Shown here: one piece after another, positions 46,952-60,235 of the stretch
Layout of the letters: each line of letters opens with the position of its first letter
How positions within the stretch are numbered: the stretch's first letter is position 1
NCBI GenBank assembly: GCA_019096065.1
Contig: JAGUCH010000002.1
Span: forward strand, 8,754,501 to 8,818,500
Source: Paracyclopina nana
Taxonomy: Eukaryota > Arthropoda > Copepoda > Cyclopoida > Cyclopettidae
DNA length: 64,000 nucleotides
Direction: 5' to 3'
Made by a program: the position numbers and the translations under genes
The notes under the pieces: model-generated
Databases searched by the model: none
What the model was told of the DNA's origin: nothing
What the model saw: only the letters and a program-made list of their open reading frames with translations

Positions 46952-49900
46952 TTAGAGGGCATCGGATACCCGAACTATGTATCGGACAGCAACTTGGTCA
47001 GATTTGGCAGCTACAAATTCATTATAAGTGCCGATAGACTTTCCTTTGGTATGCTTAATCCTTCCATTTGGAACAACAATTCCAAGGCACGACGGACGGA
47101 CGCTCTCCTCCGGATCCGGTTGGTATCGACCAACAGCCTGAATAGAGTCAAAGTTTTTTTTGTCATTCGGAAGGTATCTGTGCTCCGCCATTTTGAAAGT
47201 GTTGCCTAATGCGACATCACACAAGAGGAAATATCTTCCGTCGTAGTTGTCAGTGTTTACCATGGAACTTGAGTAACTGAAGCTCTTGTCCAACACATCA
47301 GCAGCATAGATGCCTTCGCCATAGAGACGACCGGATACATTGGCAAAAGAGTAATTGAGCAACAGTCCTTTGTTCAAAATACTGATGAGGTTCTCCAGCT
47401 TTGTGCCATGCCACAGCAGTTTTCGGTTCATAGCTTTCGTAGTTTTCCACATTCCTTGCTTGGGCTGCAACTTTTCCTGATCAGCCTTGATTGAGACCTT
47501 GTAAATGGCAGTAACATTCTTGCCAGCAAATCCATTGCTGTTATAAATGTACTTCAGAATATGTGGTGCAATTGCAGAGTCATCCTTCGCTATGCACTCT
47601 ATCTGGCAGCCTATGGCTTTGAAGATGTAATCAATGGGATTGATTTCATCCTTTCTGTACTGTGCTCCGAGCAAAATGCGCTCAGCAATTTCGAAATCCA
47701 GCATCCTGTCGAGAATATCCCTTTCTACTTGTATCTTCTCGGCAGAGTCCAAGGGTTCTAGCCTGGTGAATTCAAATCCCTGTTTCGGCATCAAATAGTA
47801 ATACTCGGTGGAGAGATCAGATATCTTGGATAAAACATTGTGAAGCTCATCATCCAAGTTGGTCGCTTTATTTTTGGGATCATTTTTCCTCTTGGTAATC
47901 TTCTCATTTTCTTTGGCAAGACCTTCCAACTGGTTTAGCAGCTCCTGGGCCTTCTTCAAGTCGTCTCTCTTAATGCGACCAAACGGAACTACTGAAAAGT
48001 CAATACCAACTTTTTTGTAGGCGTTCATGTACATGGACACATTAGCCATGTCTTTCATCATCAGTTGCACATCAGATGACAAACTTGATGGCTTGTCGGA
48101 TCGCAGATCAAAGACCAAGGCAGACTTCTTCACCCGTCCCATCTTTTTGGGGTCCACCAAGCGATATTTGCCCTTTTTACATTCAAAGTTGGAATCCTTT
48201 TGACTCCATTCGTTTCCACTCTTCGCTTTGAAAATCTTTTCAAATTCTTGCGCGGCTTGATCCGCTGATCCATAGGGAGTATTTTGACATTGGCTACCCC
48301 ACCAATGCGAACCAATCCTACCCCAATTGGTGAATAGCACATACAAGTCCTTGTGCTTCTCTTTCCAAATTTGCATCCTGTAAAAGTTGTACAGTCCCCA
48401 AGCTCCTTGAGATACGTCGATTTTCGTCATCAATATTGAGTAATTCATGTACAGCTCTCCGTCCTTGACATTACACTGGCTTGGAGGCTTGGATTCGTCA
48501 ACTTCTTTAAGTTCCTCATCTCCAACACTTTCATCCCCCGAACTCGACTCGCTGCCTCCATCGGAGTTTTCAATGGTATCCTCCTCATCGGAATCAATGT
48601 CCATAGGGGCTCCAAACTGCGGTCCTTCCACATGAGAAGCCTTGTCAGCGTCCGACTCAAGCTTTTTTACCATTTTCCTCGCATCAGCAGCAACATCATA
48701 GTCTTTTATCCGATTGAGAGCTGTCTCTCCCTCAAAGGTGATTTCTGCATAAATCGACTGTTCATCTACTTTTCTGTTAAGGCCAAACCTGGTGGAAATG
48801 TAGTTGGCAATTCTGATAGCTCTTGACTGGACGGCTTCTCTGTACCAGACAGCGGCATTGCTTTTAGCTAGATCAGGGTTGGCCCCAATGAATGCATCGG
48901 TCAAGGCTGCAATCATAGACTCATTGTCGTAAGTGAAATTTCCCACGTCTTCACAATATTGAGAAGAGATGGCATGATTGACCGCGCCATGGCCATGACA
49001 ATCAAAATGAAAGACATTGGCTCCATAGTTGATCAAGAGTTTGGCAGCGGCAACGTCATTGGCCTTTGCTGCATGCATCAGTGCTGTCATGCCATCGGTG
49101 TCACACGCATCCACATCCGCATTCATTTCCAGCAAAAGCTCGACAAGATGAGCATTTTTGAAAACAACGCCGATAATCAAAGGGGTCACTTTGCTGATAT
49201 CATGCCATGGCTCGTCATGGAAACCACACTCAAGAGATTTAGCAGTAAAACCACCTCGAAAGTGGGATAACGGCTTCAACTGGATCTTGTGATTGACGTC
49301 AGCTCCCTTTTCAATGAGAGTTTTGACCATGGAGAGGTCAGGTCCATGATCGCATTTCCACAGCATGCACAACAACGGCGTGCGTCCATATTTGTCTTGC
49401 AAATTAGAAAGTGCTGTCATTTTGGACGGGACGATGTTTTTGAGCAAGTACTCAAACAAATCTTGGTTGCGATGCAGGCATGCATAATGTAAGGCTGTGC
49501 ATCCATACTCATCAGCTTGAATTAGCTCTATGCCAGACTCAATGAGCAGATCTAGGACGTCATGCAACAACATTTTGTCTTGACCTTCATTCGAGTTTTC
49601 GAAAGCAAGAGATGTGACCAAGTTCCTGCTCGCAGTTACCTTTTGCTTTAGTTTAAATGCTGACACTTGCTTTTCAATCAGCCGTTTGGCAAATTGAAGC
49701 TTCTTCAAGCTAAAAGCTACTTCAATCAAGCTTGCATAGGACATGCCAAACTTCTCCATTTGCTCCATGGCAACAAATGTGATTCCAAGCCAGTCATTTT
49801 GAACCAATGATTTGAACAAGGACACTTCATTGGTTGAGCCCTTGGCAGTTTCAAAATGTCTTGGCAAATACTTGAATATTTCCTCTTTGTTTTTTGATTG

Positions 49901-52900
49901 CTTAGAGTCACTTCTCCAGTCAAAATTGATAGTGACATTGACATTGGCCCCTTTCTGAATGAGCATGAGCGAGCAAGAATCCTGACATCCAGCCACGCTA
50001 TATGCAAGTGGGGTGTTGCCATACATGTCCACTCTATTTATATCAGCTCCTGAAAAATCAACAAGGATTTATTAAAATTCAAAAGATTTTAAAATATGCG
50101 TTAGTTACCTCTGCTCAAAAGTAGAAGGCAAGAGATGGTCCCACCGCAGAAAGCTGCATAGTGTAGAGGACTCCGGCCTTGATCATCCGTCTTGTCAATT
50201 TTATCTTCTTGCATGGCTTCCACCAACAGGCTACACACTTCTATAGGATCTTTGGTGGCCGGAGATACGGATCCATCTCTGAAGAGGTCATGCAATGGGT
50301 AGCGTCCGTTACACTCGGCAAACACATTTGCCCCGCTTTTGATCAGAACCAATTCCAAGTCCAAAGACTCATCGGCACGACCACTAGAGCCATACACAGC
50401 TAAGTGAAGAGCAGACATGCCTTTCTTCTTGTCAGACTCTTGGACCACTGATGCAATGTTGGCTCCGGCATGAATGATATCCTTAACAATGGCTAGTCTG
50501 GCCCTGTCAAAACGAGCTCTTCTACTAAGCGCAACAGCCAAGAGAAATGGATTTGGAGTGAACTTCGTCCCATTGGGTAGTTTGCTTTCGCATCCTTTTG
50601 GCTGCAAAGTTGCACCGTGCTCCAAAAGTAACTTTACCAAACTGTGCTTCCCACTCCTGATGGCTTCCAGAAGCGGAAAAGATTTCAGTTTGTAGGCTAA
50701 AGGCTGACCATTGACGTAGCAGGTCTTCACTTTTTCAGACTCATAAATTAGGCTTGGATTTGCACCAGCTGCGAGGAGGTTCCTCGATTGCTTGATATGT
50801 CCTCTGATAACAGCTTTGACAAGTTGAGTGTTCCCATTGATGTCAACGCAGTCAACTTCCTTGCAAAATTGCAGCATGAGCTGAAATCCTGGTCTCATGT
50901 TGTTGACCTCTGGCTCGTTTGAGCTCTCCATTCCAAGAATAGCCAACGAAGCAGAAATAGTCAAGGGCTTACAGCCCTTCCTAGGTGAGTGAGTGTAGGC
51001 CATGGTGGGGTTGAATTCTTTGATGAACATTGTAATGATATCTCTTGCCAGAGACCACTTTTTGTCATAGTCAACGAGGAGTAGCGAGCATTTATCATAG
51101 TTGAGTGAAGGTAAAAACCGAATTGGTTGTTCTGGTTTTGAAGGCCTTACTATTTTTGGAAAGCAACTGTAAGTTCGACACAATGTGAGAAAGGCCGACA
51201 TTGATCCATTCCTTGCAGCCATCAACTCCCGAATGTCCAATGAGCCCTTCTTCTCGAGCATCTTGAGAACTTGAACTAATTTTTTGAAGATTTCCAACTC
51301 TTTCTCAACATACGCCAGAGAGACATTGGAAGAAAACGCTTCCAAAATTGTGTTCTTATCTTTGGGTATGACCAGTTTGCCAACTTCGTCATTTGCAGCA
51401 CTTGCACTCATGCTGCTTAGAATCAAATCTATCAGGGGATAATTTCGACCATGGTTGACTTTAATTCTGAAGACTTTCGCCAAAGGCCAATCTCCATCTT
51501 CGTCTGCTGTCCACAAGTTGCACTTGTAGTCAAGGAATTTCTCCACAAATTTGAGTTGCATTTGGATGCGATGATTCTGCTTGGCTGAAATCTGCTTTTG
51601 AGTGCCTTCAAAGAAACTGTCGTCTACCTCACAACTATTCCATCCGGCTAAATAATGCAAAATATTCCTCTTGAACTTGTCAGCCACAGTTGGGTCAGCA
51701 TTTCTGCGATCAATCATATCACAAATCTCCTCTAGGAGCTGCTTGCTCAAGCCTCTAGAGTCATTGTCAACGCTTGCAGCATTGCTTCTCTCAGCAAATG
51801 CTTCAACAATCATAGTCATGATAACCGTTCTTTCATTGTCGTCTCTGCCATTGATGTCGACCCCAGGAATCTCCAAGAGCCATTTGGCCAATCCGGAGTG
51901 GCCTTTCAAGAAGGCCACTGCCACCGGGGTCAGTTTCCACTCATTGGCAGCATTGGGATCAGCTCCAGCTTCAAGGAGAAGCTTAGCGCAAAAGTACCAG
52001 CCATACGCACAAGCATAATGTAAATTGGTATTCAAAGAGCTATCAGGAGTGTTGAATGCAGCTCCTAGGTGAACCAGATAAGATGCTACATTGGCGTTCC
52101 CATTCATAACGGCATGCGTGAGCGCTGTCTTCCTGTACTTGTCCATTTTTTCCACTTTCGCCTTGCCTTTAGTGACGAGTAGCTTCACCATTTCTAGGTT
52201 GCCTGATGCACTAGCCAACATAAGCGGCGTCAATTTATCGCAATTTGAGCTCAGAGGCTTTTCAACATTTGCTCCGAGATCCAACAGCAGCTCCACAACT
52301 TCCAAGTGGTTCTCCCCAATTGCGAGGTGCAAAGGACACCACGAGTTCCTTTGGGGCATATTGATGCCAGCGATGCCAAACTTTTGCGTGGCTGCGGATG
52401 CTTCATCGTCATTGCTCAACGCTGCCTTGATGTGATCATAGATGAACTTTATGTTGTCAGCTCTGCCTGCCACGCAAGCTGAATGGATAGGGGTCAATCC
52501 TTGCTTGGTCGAATCCAGAAGGTAGACACCTTTACCCTGCAAGTATTCAAGGGGACCAGTGCCTTCGCAAACGGCAGCATAGTGAACAGGTTTCCGTCCA
52601 GCTTGGTCAGCCAAGTGAAGATTGGGATATCCATTGTATATCTCGTCGAGGGCTTTGGTGCAGGGGTTGATGCAAGCCAAGTGCATTGGAGTCATACCCA
52701 TGTCAGCTTTTTTCGTTATGCTCGCCTCCTTTATGCTCGGATTCCAATCTGGATCTTTGCTGGTTTTGGTCAAGCTCTCCAAATGGAATTTGGAGTACGG
52801 GCTTTCCATCTTGCTAAAGTCCATTACTTGCTTCACCAAGGCTGCTGCCAGTCGCCTATGACCTCGAACGGCTGCATTGACAATTATTCTGGAGTCAAAG

Positions 52901-53898
52901 CAATTCTTGCTCTTTTCCTCGTTCAGCTCTCTAAGAATTGCTAAATCCGCATTTTGCTCAGCAGCATAGTAAAGATAGGACTGGAATGAGCACGGGTAGA
53001 AATCCGATGTGGCATCTTTGGTGAAAGCATTGTTGCCCTCCCGGCTACCTCGGCTCATTTGCAGTCGGCGAATGTGACGTATGCCTAGGGAACGATAATT
53101 GTAATGCCCAGTGCTGACTACTTGTAAGTGACACCTCGTCTCTTCAACTCGCATCTGCGCTTTTGGTTTCATCTCACTCTTGAGCAGCTTGATAGCTGCC
53201 AAATTGCCAGATTGAATGGCATAGTGCAGTGGAGTCAGGGCAGTCATGATTGAACGCCGTCTGCTCACGGAGCTAATATTTTTCCTATCGTTGATGCACT
53301 TTTTGAGCAAGGCAACATCGTTCAGAAACACGGCTCTTGTCACAAGATGGCTGTGAGCGGATGGTGACACGAAAGGCACTTCCTCGGTCGTCTCAAAAAG
53401 TGGGTCTTTGCTCCACACATTGATTTTGGGACGAGGTTTCAGTCTCCAATTAGGATTCGATTTGTCAACCTTAGCCTTCTCCACTTTGGTCTTTTTGGCA
53501 TCGGGTGGAGCACAAAGTTTGGTTTTCTTTCCTTTGCCACCAGAATTCTTGGTCTGCTTATCTTTCGCAAGCTTTCTCTTCCTTCCAGTTTTAGTTTCAT
53601 CTTCGTGTTTCTCATCTTCTGTAGGCAAAAGCTTTTCGAGTTGCAAGCTGGTTTTCAAGGGCAATTTGTAGGCTCCGTTCGATTTGACAAGCCTCACCTT
53701 TTTGATTATAGAATCATATGGCACCAGATTGGGCTCACTTTCTAAGGTATAATCCCCGCACTGATTTCTTTCAAACCAAACACACTTAAAATGACTTTTC
53801 GTATTTCTGGCTTTTTGCAAGTATTTGCATAACCAAATCTGATTACCTTCGCCGTGAACGGCAATGACATCATTTCGACTATAAGTCAAGACCGCCAT
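46952..53898 (-). CDS. Ankyrin-WGR poly(ADP-ribose) polymerase, PME-5 type
   Basis: Two minus-strand exons, 53898-50109 and 50049-46952, join in phase across a 59-bp intron to 2295 residues, close to the roughly 2.3-kDa-residue size of nematode PME-5. A basic nuclear-localisation-like tract (GRKRKLAKDKQ, about 105-130) precedes a very long ankyrin array (about 170-1500; units such as TALTHAVMNGNANVASYLVHLG). An acidic linker follows, then WGR (about 1810-1893; NWGRIGSHWWGSQ), the PARP regulatory helical domain (about 1923-2060) and the catalytic domain. The H-Y-E triad is complete: His in LWHGT (about 2142), Tyr in GEGIYAAD (about 2177), Glu in TYNEF (about 2271), so polymer synthesis is expected. 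Unlike vertebrate tankyrase it has WGR and no SAM. The first ATG is at 53898; the frame extends upstream only with non-ATG codons. Poly(A) signal at 46876-46881. Confidence 0.93.
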
Positions 53899-54941
53899 GT
53901 TGCCACTTGCCAGGGAAATGGCCTTACAGGCAAACACTCATAACGATAAGCTGATACCGACTGAATAAGGCTATGAGAACGGAACGTTTAAATAGTCACT
54001 CGGAATTTTCAAGCACGAACATGCTGTACATGCGCAGAAAACACCGACACGTCTACAGGGCATGTAGGCCTACACTAGTCGATATGAGTAACGTATGCAC
54101 AGTGGGACTTACCCTTGTAAAAATATACATGGAACATCAGCTAGTTTCATCTATTAGCATTCTGATAATTTGCTGCACGTACGATGCTAGTTTCTGTATC
54201 AAGGTGAAAATGAATTTAGATTTCGCTTGTTAGGTTCGTTGCCAGGGCACCCAATAGAAAATCAATAGGGTGACAAACAATGTGACACGTTCGCAAATTT
54301 AGGGGAAACTCGTGACCTTGCCGTGAATATCTAAGTAATGTTTTTAGAGCCACTTTTTCAAGGGGTCTTGCCTGAAATATTTCACCTAGAGCCTAGAGAG
54401 GTGAGAATTCCCGTGTTTCCGAAATTCGCTAAAGGGAATCATGAAGTGAGCCGAATATTTTTCAGGCATTTAATGAAGGGAAAAATAACAATTAGCATAG
54501 TTACTAGCACTAAACCGAATTAATTATGTTTTCAATGCCCAAGTCAACCGCACATAGCTTCATCTTACATTCTCTAAACCAAAAGCAGCTGCAAAAAAAT
54601 GGCTTTGAATTAAAGTTGAAGATTGGAATTATCTTCAACCGACTAGAGCCCTAGATTTTGATGAGAGCATCTCTTTCTCAACAACAGCTGAACTTTTTTT
54701 GGAAAAAATTTACTAAGGTACAGCTCAAACTACAGCTCTGATCGGAACGAAATTTTGAGGGGTTCATGGTTTCTCGGTACAGTTACCAAATAAAAAAATA
54801 GCATAACATAATATGGAACAAAAATGGGCAGATGTCGTGCTACTGTAGGGCGGCCAGCCACCTTTGGGCTGTTTTTGGAACTGAGTTTTGAGAACGATCT
54901 ACTCATCAAAATCTAGAGCTCTACAGCCGACATTTTAATAT
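53899..54941. other. Intergenic, upstream of the PARP gene
   Basis: About 1 kb that includes the PARP 5' UTR/promoter on the minus strand. A small hairpin (GTTGAAGAT ... ATCTTCAAC) is near 54616-54640. No coding evidence. Confidence 0.5.
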
Positions 54942-55482: not shown

Positions 55483-56666
55483 AACTTTCAGCTCCAACTT
55501 TCGCAAAATTTCCACATTGCTGTCTAGTGTTTAATTGCTGTCAACGGAAAAGAGCTCTCTAATAATAGTTTCTTTTTTAAAATGGTCACTGAGTGATGTG
55601 TGCTAGTGATGGGATCAAGCTTTGGCTCGGCTTGAAAGTGTTAGTTTTTAAAAAATCAAGATCCCAATCATTTTTTTATGGGATTAGAATTAGGATTTTT
55701 CCATTTCAGCCTACAAAAAACCAGTAAACATGGGTATTTTTTTAAAGCTGTCAGTTTTTTCCATCGATATCAATAGTATCCAATGATTCTCGAATCTGTT
55801 ACACAAATGTCTTATTTTTAAGTGCGTAGAAATATCTGAAACTGACTATTGTTGGGGGAGGAGCGAAGCCCCTACTATCTTAGTTTCATGGAATGTTAGG
55901 GGTATAAAATTACATAATTTACCCCAAAATTGATTCCTGGGCTATAAAGTTTTTTATATGCCCCAAAATGCTTAGAAAGAACTCTGACATGAAAGAGCTG
56001 AGTCGGATCGGTAAACTGAATTATAACTTGTTAATTTTTATAATCATCGCATTCGTCTAAATAAATCCTAATTCGGATAATGTGTAGGACTTTCTACGCT
56101 CGATCGACTGCAAAAAAACATCTTTATTTATCCATCTTGTCAGCACAAGTTTTTTAAAAGTGGTTCAAATATAGATGACAAAAATACTCGGTAAATGGAG
56201 CATTTAGAGCTATGATTGCAATTATTACAATTATAAAAACGAGAAAGCTGCAAATTATTTGGCTGTTAACAGACTGATTTTTTAGGCCAGAGCTTCGTTT
56301 GATACATCGATTCGGGTTTGATTTTTCAATTTTGGGCCCAAACCCCTTGTCACCATGTGGTTTGATGGGGTTTCAAGTTTGGCGGCCCCCAGGATGCTCT
56401 AAGGGGGTCAAATGGGGCCTGGTCTTATCAGCTGATTGAAACAAGGCAAATCTTTGCGGGGGCGTGGCTGGAGGAGTGGAGGGCAGCCAAAATCAACTAT
56501 GCCCCAATTCTTGAGGCCCCTGGGGGGTGTCCAGATGTCAGGGGAAAAAAGTTGGAAAAAGTCCTCGGCAAGGCCAAAAAAAGCCAAAATTTGCGTTTTC
56601 GGACCCAACTTTGAGGCTGATTATCTCCAAAGGCTACGGATGGATTTTGGATTTTTTTGCTCCAAA
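55483..56666. other. Intergenic, nothing coding seen
   Basis: About 1.2 kb. AT-rich to about 56.3 kb, then GC-richer from 56.4 kb toward the palindrome. The segment 56436-56660 has the same texture as the palindrome arm but no inverted counterpart on the far side. Confidence 0.45.
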
Positions 56667-59087
56667 TGGCAGATAAAGATCCAAATTAGTACCAAGAAAA
56701 AATTTGGGAGGGTGTTATTCCTCGTTTGTCCGCTACGAGCTCTCAAAGTTGGACAAAATTCACTTTTTCACAGTAGTAACAAAATGGCTACTTTTCTTCT
56801 GTCAAAAATTCTCGATTGGTCACAGTGGCCAAGTTGATGGCTGGAGTGTGGGCCATTTGGTCTGGAGGACACCTCTAGGGTCTCAGTGGTTGGTATCAGG
56901 TCCAACTTCCTTGGTAGGGCAAGGTCAGGCCCAGCCAGGAGCCTTGGAGCCGAGCCATCGCGACGGCCATTTCGATTCAGTGGCAATTCCAAGGGCCTTG
57001 CTGCCAATTCTGGGGACAGATTGTTGACCATTTGGCCTTGATCACTCCTTTAGGGTCCCAACAGATGATTTCAAGGCTAACAGTCAAGGTACAGCAAGGT
57101 CAGCTTGATCCAGGGGGCTCGGAGTTCACTTGTGGCATTGGTGATTTGGCTACAGAAAGTCTTCGAGGGCCTCGATGGCCAAGTTCTCTGATCAGGTGAG
57201 GATTTTTTGAGCTGTATCACTCCTTTGGCATCCCATGAGATGATTTCAAGTTCAACTTTGATGGTGATCATCAGCTGACTGCTTCCAGGGCTACCAGAGC
57301 TTATTTGCCAACTCAGCTGCCAATGGTTCAATGAAAGGCAGCATGGATCACAGCCAAGACCAAGGTTGGAAAGTGGATTTTTTAGGCTGAATCAACTCAA
57401 ATGGATGCAAGGAGATGAAAGAAAGTCTAATTTTCATGGTGTTATGCTCCCTTCTTCAACCAGGAGTGCCAAAGTTTCGTATGAACAAAAATCGAAAATG
57501 GCTTCAATAAAGAGCTCATTTGATTGCAGCCAAGACGAGCAATGACAAGTCACTTTTTTGCCCCAGCTCATCTCAGAAGGTGCCAAAGAGAATTTAGAAG
57601 GTGTAAACTTTCAGGTGTTGTGCACCTTTCATGGTTCTGGATGCGCAAAACTTTCCTGTTACAGCCATTGCTCCTATAATAACAACTGCTACTCAGAAGG
57701 AAAACGCCTCGCGCTCAAAAATTTACGGATGAGTTGCATCCAGAACCATGAAAGGTGCGCAACACCTGGAATTTTACACCTTCTAAATTCTCTTTGGCAC
57801 CCTCTGAGGTGATCTAGGCCAAAAAAGTCGCGTTTCATCCGTAAATTTTTGAGCGCGAGGCGTTTTCCTTCTGAGTAGCAGTTGTTATTATAGGAGCAAT
57901 GGCTGTAACAGGAAAGTTTTGCGCATCCAGAACCATGAAAGGTGCACAACACCTGGAATTTTACACCTTCTAAATTCTCTTTGGCACCCTCTGAGGTGAT
58001 CCAGGCCAAAAAAGTCCCGTTTCATCCGTAAATTTTTGAGCGCGAGGCGTTTTCCTTCTGAGTAGCAGTTGTTATTATAGGAGCAATGGCTGTAACAGGA
58101 AAGTTTTGCGCATCCAGAACCATGAAAGGTGCACAAAACCTGAAAGTTTACACCTTCTAAATTCTCTTTGGCACCTTCTGAGATGAGCTGGGGCAAAAAA
58201 GTGACTTGTCATTGCTCGTCTTGGCTGCAATCAAATGAGCTCTTTATTGAAGCCATTTTCGATTTTTGTTCATACGAAACTTTGGCACTCCTGGTTGAAG
58301 AAGGGAGCATAACACCATGAAAATTAGACTTTCTTTCATCTCCTTGCATCCATTTGAGTTGATTCAGCCTAAAAAATCCACTTTCCAACCTTGGTCTTGG
58401 CTGTGATCCATGCTGCCTTTCATTGAACCATTGGCAGCTGAGTTGGCAAATAAGCTCTGGTAGCCCTGGAAGCAGTCAGCTGATGATCACCATCAAAGTT
58501 GAACTTGAAATCATCTCATGGGATGCCAAAGGAGTGATACAGCTCAAAAAATCCTCACCTGATCAGAGAACTTGGCCATCGAGGCCCTCGAAGACTTTCT
58601 GTAGCCAAATCACCAATGCCACAAGTGAACTCCGAGCCCCCTGGATCAAGCTGACCTTGCTGTACCTTGACTGTTAGCCTTGAAATCATCTGTTGGGACC
58701 CTAAAGGAGTGATCAAGGCCAAATGGTCAACAATCTGTCCCCAGAATTGGCAGCAAGGCCCTTGGAATTGCCACTGAATCGAAATGGCCGTCGCGATGGC
58801 TCGGCTCCAAGGCTCCTGGCTGGGCCTGACCTTGCCCTACCAAGGAAGTTGGACCTGATACCAACCACTGAGACCCTAGAGGTGTCCTCCAGACCAAATG
58901 GCCCACACTCCAGCCATCAACTTGGCCACTGTGACCAATCGAGAATTTTTGACAGAAGAAAAGTAGCCATTTTGTTACTACTGTGAAAAAGTGAATTTTG
59001 TCCAACTTTGAGAGCTCGTAGCGGACAAACGAGGAATAACACCCTCCCAAATTTTTTCTTGGTACTAATTTGGATCTTTATCTGCCA
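56667..59087. repeat. 2.4-kb near-perfect palindrome (1066-bp arms)
   Basis: Arms 56667-57732 and 58022-59087 are reverse complements about a centre at 57877: paired positions sum to 115754 wherever checked, and long stretches on both strands translate identically in the two arms. I found one base difference (57617 G against 58137 A, where C would be expected), so the arms are nearly but not exactly identical. The 289-bp spacer (57733-58021) consists of tandem units. The arms contain no recognisable gene; their open frames are mirror-image duplicates. Candidates are a recent foldback element, an inverted duplication kept alike by gene conversion, or an assembly or library artefact. Confidence 0.9.
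57733..58200. repeat. 187-bp tandem units at the centre of the palindrome
   Basis: The word CAGAACCATGAAAGGTGC starts at 57741, 57928 and 58115, exactly 187 bp apart, and the sequence between copies agrees closely. All three lie in the same orientation. The left arm carries one more copy in the opposite orientation (about 57558-57732), so the central block is head-to-head. The leftmost inverted copy is truncated at the junction (GTTGCATCC, 57733 on). Confidence 0.85.
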
Positions 59088-59573: not shown

Positions 59574-60235
59574 ATGGCTATCACTCCAGCCTCGAAGCCC
59601 AAGATTGTCAAGAAGCGGTCCAAAAAGTTCACTCGCCACCAGAGTGATCGGTACGATAAGCTTTCCCGTAACTGGAGGAAGCCAAAAGGTATCGATAACA
59701 GAGTGAGGAGGCGCTTCAAGGGAATGTACTTGATGCCAAACATTGGTTATGGCTCCGCCAAGGCAACCAAGCACATGCTCCCTACTGGTTTCAGGAAGGT
59801 CCTCGTCAACAACATCAAGGTAGAGTCGAATTTTCGTTTCAATCAAAGTGTCGTTATATGCGAGCCTAGAGTCACTTGGCAGCCAGTTCAATGACAGTTT
59901 TAGTGCTCAAGGTCTTCGCAGAGTAAACCAAACTTTACGTTTTAGCGGGCTCCAATTGCTTGTTTTCACTTAATCATACTGAAAGCGCCGCCCGAGCCTG
60001 TACATTTTCTTAGCTTATAATTTTGTCTCTGTTTTTTTTTCCGTAATTTCAACTAAGGCTTTGATTTACATTACAGGAGCTCGAGGTTCTTATGATGCAA
60101 AACAAGAAGTTCTGCGCCGAAATCGCCCACGGAGTCTCCGCCAAGAACAGGAAGGCTCTAGTTGAGAGGGCCCAACAGTTGTGCATCCGTGTAACAAATG
60201 CCAACGCTAGGCTCAGGAGCGAGGAAAACGAATAA
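59574..60235 (+). CDS. RpL32: 60S ribosomal protein L32
   Basis: Coding exons 59574-59819 and 60077-60235 join in phase 0 to 134 residues, the exact length in flies. The sequence is typical eL32: [68 protein letters not shown] and C-terminus ARLRSEENE. It is a structural protein of the large ribosomal subunit. The AATAAA at 60231-60236 overlaps the stop codon TAA, so the 3' UTR is likely under 30 bases unless a downstream signal is used. The 257-bp intron may host an H/ACA snoRNA. Confidence 0.98.
59858..60007 (+). ncRNA. Possible H/ACA snoRNA in the RpL32 intron
   Basis: The intron contains a box-H-like AGAGTA (59920-59925) and an ACA trinucleotide (60002-60004) followed by three bases. Short complementary stretches flank them: GCGA (59860) with TCGC before box H, and GGGCTC (about 59949) with GAGCCT before ACA. 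Size (about 150 nt) and order fit a two-hairpin H/ACA RNA, and RPL32 introns host SNORA7 in vertebrates. Pairing is by eye and weak; no target is assigned. Confidence 0.27.

Follow-up and report, generated by a model that had tools for sequence, protein, structure and literature searches.

The 64,000-nucleotide stretch of DNA that we analyzed (hereafter, the window) carries a long and nearly perfect palindrome in the interval between PARP-type open reading frames (ORFs) and the RpL32 gene. This raises the question of what kind of structure the palindrome is and how its two arms came to be so alike. A sequence-only reading of the locus had offered three answers: a young foldback element, an inverted duplication homogenized by gene conversion, or a hairpin artefact. 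Here, we argue that it is a right-truncated copy of a non-autonomous foldback transposon that targets TTAA, cut by a transposase acting in trans and with arms copied during repair, and to this reading, taken as a whole, we assign a probability of roughly 85%. The window palindrome is ordinary in kind; it is the record of arm homogenization in its relatives that is unusually clear.

The arms of the palindrome lie at 56667–57732 (plus orientation) and 58022–59087 (minus orientation), each 1,066 nt long, around an axis at 57877 and a spacer of 289 nt. These arms, their length and their axis agree with the sequence-only reading, and the mismatch that it had reported, between 57617 (G) and its partner at 58137, proved to be the only one. 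The spacer (57733–58021) is not mirror symmetric and carries extra units of a 187-bp tandem repeat, three of which run head to tail on the plus strand from 57736 to 58296, the other two being 98% and 61% identical to the first. Diverged 187-bp units also occur in the arms (left arm), in mirror orientation. When we scanned the window for inverted repeats with a 14-nt seed and a 60-nt minimum, we found no other, save two sub-repeats within the palindrome. To its left, the minus strand holds a PARP-type ORF with ankyrin, WGR and PARP domains (46952–50032) and an ORF with ankyrin repeats (50101–53937); to its right, RpL32 starts on the plus strand with an ATG at 59574, its exon matched to eL32 chains. 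Judged by the orientation of these ORFs, the element probably lies upstream of both neighbors, the PARP-type ORFs and RpL32.

We searched the assembly (91.95 Mb in 10 contigs) for further copies of the arm, as the sequence-only reading had proposed, and found a dispersed family in about two dozen genomic places. The left arm had at least 121 full or partial matches, its own included, with up to 98% identity to other genomic copies (best 40 of 69 candidates), and its outer neighbor at 56266–56666 had at least 40 (best 40 of 118 candidates). These matches, together with the termini that the family shares, refute the idea that ordinary DNA between PARP and RpL32 was duplicated once in inverted orientation. 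Nothing speaks for this idea beyond the palindrome itself, and we give it virtually no chance of being correct. The family comprises 20 two-ended copies and one that is interrupted near its end (L016), as well as the window copy and four others that are partial or diverged. The interruption in L016 consists of about 5.1 kb of repetitive sequence (L035:3817-8922) that splits the element near its right tip; element positions 62–71 overlap on both sides of it, perhaps as a 10-bp duplication.

Among the 24 loci that we read, 19 of the 21 two-armed sister copies have an inverted repeat that runs, uninterrupted, about 401 bp further on both sides than the window palindrome does (in L016 and L024, its outer part is interrupted on the right). 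The sister copies end in TTAACAGACTG or a near variant. A genome search with the terminal 17-mer returned 41 exact and 7 one-mismatch sites, 46 of which belong to the family: two in each of the 20 complete copies, two in L016, and one each in the window copy, L031, L032 and L033. The other two sites (L034, L036) have no further match to the element, and an additional diverged copy (L030/L039) has more changes in its terminus. Only sites with at most one mismatch were used, because at up to two mismatches a backwards control gave more sites (103) than the 17-mer itself (88). TTAA and CAGACT stand at both tips of all 20 complete copies, which are 3,007–7,527 bp long. The best inverted alignment begins at the tip and spans 1,354–2,072 bp in 16 of 21 elements; in the remaining five, the best reported inverted piece begins further inward. 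Very long terminal inverted repeats (TIRs), tandem repeats in the arms together with a variable middle, and dispersed copies with target-site duplications (TSDs) mark these as foldback, or long-TIR, elements.

Comparison with the sister copies shows that the window copy has lost its right end. What is left of the element measures 2,822 bp (56266–59087) and begins with TTAA-CAGACTG. The TTAA at 56266–56269 is a TSD, identified as such from the empty sites of sister copies, and it is followed by the outer left TIR on the plus strand (56270–56666), which starts CAGACTGATTTTTT and has no partner on the right. The sequence-only reading was right about the inverted repeat, but the feature as a whole does not start at 56667, the element reaching out to 56266. 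The right arm is cut off at 59087, with unrelated sequence beyond; it lacks its outer 401 bp, for which the left arm still has the matching stretch, and the right TSD is missing. Searching the rest of the window to the right for the lost 401 bp, we found nothing significant (best 13 bp, E 0.024), and the break itself showed neither a mirrored flank nor an overrun. Since its right end is lost, this copy should be immobile.

The same comparison bears on whether the palindrome is an assembly or library hairpin, produced by reading a single arm two times over. Such artefacts classically take the form of near-perfect palindromes, but here the left arm is longer than the right by 401 bp at its outer end, the spacer is asymmetric, the arms carry a mismatch, and the genome holds 22 two-armed copies with arm divergences of 0–3.2%, of which 20 have TTAA at each tip. 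We therefore find no support for this option of the sequence-only reading and consider an artefact very improbable.

Apart from L028 and, in part, L029, the flanks of the complete copies show no mutual similarity. For the 19 complete copies other than L028, we joined the flanks around a single TTAA and searched the genome for the result (best 40 of 243 candidates). The target of L014 was found empty at three places, with 100% identity over 124 bp and one TTAA in each. The target of L026 recurs at many places with 84–89% identity, and among three that were fetched, two have TTAA and one has TTCA; L024 is inserted in a tandem repeat, and the single related place that was fetched reads TTCA. For L028, a paralog of the target on contig C4 holds a single TTAA. 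Given that empty sites hold a single TTAA, we conclude that insertion duplicates it. The target of L014 is itself a second inverted-repeat family with tandem units of about 325 bp (L063; C2:14432600-14438600), and identical copies of the target stretch occur on C4 and C3.

Two pairs of copies speak to the age of this activity. L017 and L018, which lie about 44 kb apart in opposite orientation, show 4 differences over 3,007 bp, and L023 and L025, on different contigs, show 19 over 3,761 bp. We found no flank similarity within either pair. Near-identical copies thus sit at unrelated loci, and we conclude that the family has moved recently.

We found no coding copy and no transposase among 21 copies (the 20 complete ones and the window copy), in which the longest stop-free stretch is 133–269 amino acids. 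We listed the ORFs of L011, L016 and L033–L039 and compared nine of them (four in L033, two in L016 and three in L011) with Pfam; none scored above its family cutoff, the best match being to a zinc finger in L033 (E 0.021). In the genome at large, PF13843 returned nothing, as it did in all 14 control genomes; a piggyBac protein used as a query also returned nothing, and neither did the Tc1/mariner domain DDE_3, which was positive in 3 of the 14 controls, return any match. RVT_1 gave at least 150 matches in the same genome (best 150 of 658 candidates), so our protein search can detect mobile-element proteins there.

The termini and TSD allow the family to be compared with known superfamilies. 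As described in PMC10813416 and PMC3849761, piggyBac elements duplicate TTAA, start with C, and include one member with a 528-bp TIR. The family studied here likewise starts with C, and it has TTAA at both tips of its complete copies and at empty sites. It differs in that its arms are about 1.4 kb or more, in that no transposase was found, and in its terminus CAGAC, which is not among the four 5' motifs given in PMC10813416 (CACTA, CCCTC, CCCTT and CCCAT). Mobilization in trans by a piggyBac-like transposase is our leading guess. Kolobok elements also duplicate TTAA, but the termini here, CA..TG, break the RR..YY rule set out for them in PMC9587614. The P superfamily, to which Galileo belongs, does not fit a 4-bp TTAA duplication, its TSD being 7 bp. 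Mutator foldbacks have TSDs of about 9 bp and do not fit TTAA either.

Several foldback systems from other animals offer structural parallels. Galileo and Newton of Drosophila buzzatii are foldback-like elements of the P superfamily with the 7-bp TSD GTAGTAC, and in the account of Galileo arms in PMC2775673, some copies are more than 99% identical within and about 7% apart between copies, while others are about 6% divergent within and more than 99% identical between copies. Compared by description only, the family shares with Galileo long TIRs with internal repeats and a similar behavior of the arms, but not the TSD. In a chimeric Galileo pair described there (PMC2775673), left matches left and right matches right, as in an inversion, whereas the arms of L017 and L018 match crosswise; we therefore rejected a Galileo-type inversion for this pair, and the crosswise match fits transposition in opposite orientation. 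Tetris of Drosophila virilis, according to PMC4079207, is a non-autonomous foldback whose autonomous partner was not found. It resembles our family in having tandem repeats inside long TIRs, a variable middle and no conserved ORF, and it differs in its unit of 220 bp (187 bp here) and its TSD of 8–10 bp. TTAA sets the window family apart from both Galileo and Tetris. Repbase also contains a palindromic family named PALTTAA2. In PMC1431705, this family of C. elegans is listed as PALTTAA2/PiggyBac, and its likeness to ours, as a palindromic element at TTAA, is one of name; its host is a nematode, whereas the genome here has arthropod-type TTAGG telomeres. In a literature search covering few subscription journals, we found no report of the family studied here, nor any description of a foldback element that has its flank copied in inverted orientation next to it.

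The near-perfect arms of long palindromic transposons are usually credited to unspecified gene conversion. We placed the arms of all 22 two-armed copies on the first 1,285 element positions, ignoring gap columns, and found that the left and right arms of a copy differ by a median of 0.59%, compared with 2.49% for arms of different copies. Identity between the arms of a copy is thus far above identity between copies, as the sequence-only reading's suggestion of gene conversion would have it. The copies form two groups, 11 with arms 0–0.25% apart, not all of them independent (the arms of L023/L025 and of L026/L029 are near-identical), and 11 with arms 0.94–3.19% apart. With close pairs defined by a cutoff of 0.35% that was chosen after the values were seen, random re-pairing of left and right arms gave a mean of 0.86 close pairs and a maximum of 6, and none of 20,000 re-pairings reached 11. 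Given the 11 copies with divergent arms, homogenization is not universal. Five of these (L017–L020 and L028) differ over much of the arm, and in the other six (L010–L013, L015 and L027) the differences are concentrated in the innermost 107 bp. When the former five are set aside, the ratio of difference within copies to difference between copies for the remaining 17 stays within 0–0.28 in every one of bins 1 to 11 (107 bp each) and reaches 0.54 in bin 12, the innermost.

The arms of the window copy show no differences over 884 comparable positions, the comparison being limited to these columns because the outer right arm is missing, with the single mismatch lying inward of them; the nearest foreign arm is 1.0% away. 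Given this distance and the lost right end, arm identity cannot date the insertion, and of the proposed young foldback element, the foldback is supported and its youth is not. The arms may have been homogenized after this copy diverged from all sampled copies, or they may have been inherited from an unsampled copy that was already homogenized.

One copy suggests how such homogenization could come about. The L028 element (C3:5072516-5076476) has the same 1,465 bp on both sides in perfect inverted orientation (C3:5071051-5077941; L054/L028/L055), and a search with an 866-bp query from this repeated flank had full-length matches on the two sides of L028 and nowhere else among the best 40 of 328 candidates. 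The C4 paralog of the flank (C4:188400-191800; 3.4 kb fetched), which has about 90% identity and lacks a 380-bp repeat, contains no element and a single copy of the segment, and it runs from the right outer flank through the segment and TTAA to the left outer flank. From this order, we conclude that the right side on C3 is ancestral and that the left copy came in later, separating the element from its original left flank. Where this later copy meets the original left flank, the two share the 5-bp microhomology ACATT, whose last base is the first T of the old TTAA. Over their outer 521 bp, the two arms are identical, and 12 differences lie elsewhere (P 0.0019, assuming a uniform spread, post hoc). 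The repeat of about 380 bp in the L028 flank is dispersed, with copies elsewhere, including one near L032 (L032/L037).

It is conceivable that the flank of L028 was mirrored first, as an inverted duplication centered on TTAA, and that the element was inserted later at the center; with the element removed, the joined site would indeed be a perfect palindrome with TTAA in the middle. However, the left-flank junction, with its microhomology, coincides precisely with the TTAA position in the empty C4 paralog, and identity of the arms is confined to their outer stretch. This order of events needs two coincidences, and we consider it quite unlikely. Instead, the arrangement suggests a break at the element end, copying of the other arm and an overrun into the flank of that arm, which would link arm identity to cuts at element ends, as read from this one case among 20 complete copies. 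The break would have occurred at the left TTAA, copying would have started at the broken left end, with the right arm as template, and run on across 1,465 bp of right flank, and end joining would have closed the gap. In L029, the left flank contains an inverted match of 87% identity to 233 bp of the right flank, offset by about 147 bp, possibly the trace of an older overrun.

A comparable process has been described for single-copy Pack-TIR elements, where, according to PMC8277862, gap filling and FoSTeST place copies of host DNA next to a TIR transposon once a break has formed, and one junction frequently shows microhomology. L028 shares with it the capture of flanking DNA with microhomology beside a TIR transposon. 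In the Pack-TIR case, the captured DNA sits between TIR elements, whereas in L028 the element's own opposite flank was copied, inverted, outside the element, apparently primed by homology between the arms.

For the family as a whole, we infer that a transposase supplied in trans cuts the element at its TTAA ends and that the opposite, inverted arm, either of the same element or of the sister chromatid, then serves as the template from which the broken end is repaired. Such copying would make the arms identical and may run on into the flank, as in L028. An alternative that keeps the same transposon would have the arms equalized during transposition, through a single-arm or hairpin replication intermediate, and not by donor repair, and it is in keeping with almost perfect arms in half of the copies. 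However, L011, L012 and L015 carry one pair of divergent arms to different loci, and L017 and L018 another (in this comparison, a length filter removed both arms of L026 and L029 and the right arm of L027). Transposition therefore preserves divergence, and the leveling happens otherwise; in addition, the copying in L028 was anchored at an existing insertion. We regard equalization during transposition as unlikely.

Repair from the opposite arm could also form a cycle that accounts for arm identity, in which a cut at a TTAA end leads to copying of the opposite arm, an overrun writes a perfect inverted copy of the flank, and microhomology closes the break. We put this forward tentatively, at somewhat less than even odds. 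If true, the element would be an engine that builds ever longer palindromes from host DNA. One genome here offers many copies at different stages, with the order of events in L028 readable against an empty paralog, and by implicating breakage of an element end as the initiating event, L028 makes the question of arm maintenance testable.

The sequence-only reading had also proposed that a transcript through the palindrome would form double-stranded RNA, which our modeling supports as physically sound: the predicted RNA fold of the inner 961 nt (57400–58360) has an energy of -707.7 kcal/mol, compared with -252.0 kcal/mol (SD 7.0) for 20 shuffles. A genome with arthropod-type telomeres carries foldback elements whose arms can pair to form hairpins at the kilobase scale. 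The PARP-ankyrin-WGR gene had suggested a nematode origin to us, but a search for the nematode SL1 RNA gave no match among the best 50 of 27,226 candidates, with the control silent as well, and the telomeric TTAGG arrays favor an arthropod. Several contig ends (L040–L053) carry TTAGG arrays with variants, some have CCTGG-like repeats, and contigs C8 and C9 begin with N.
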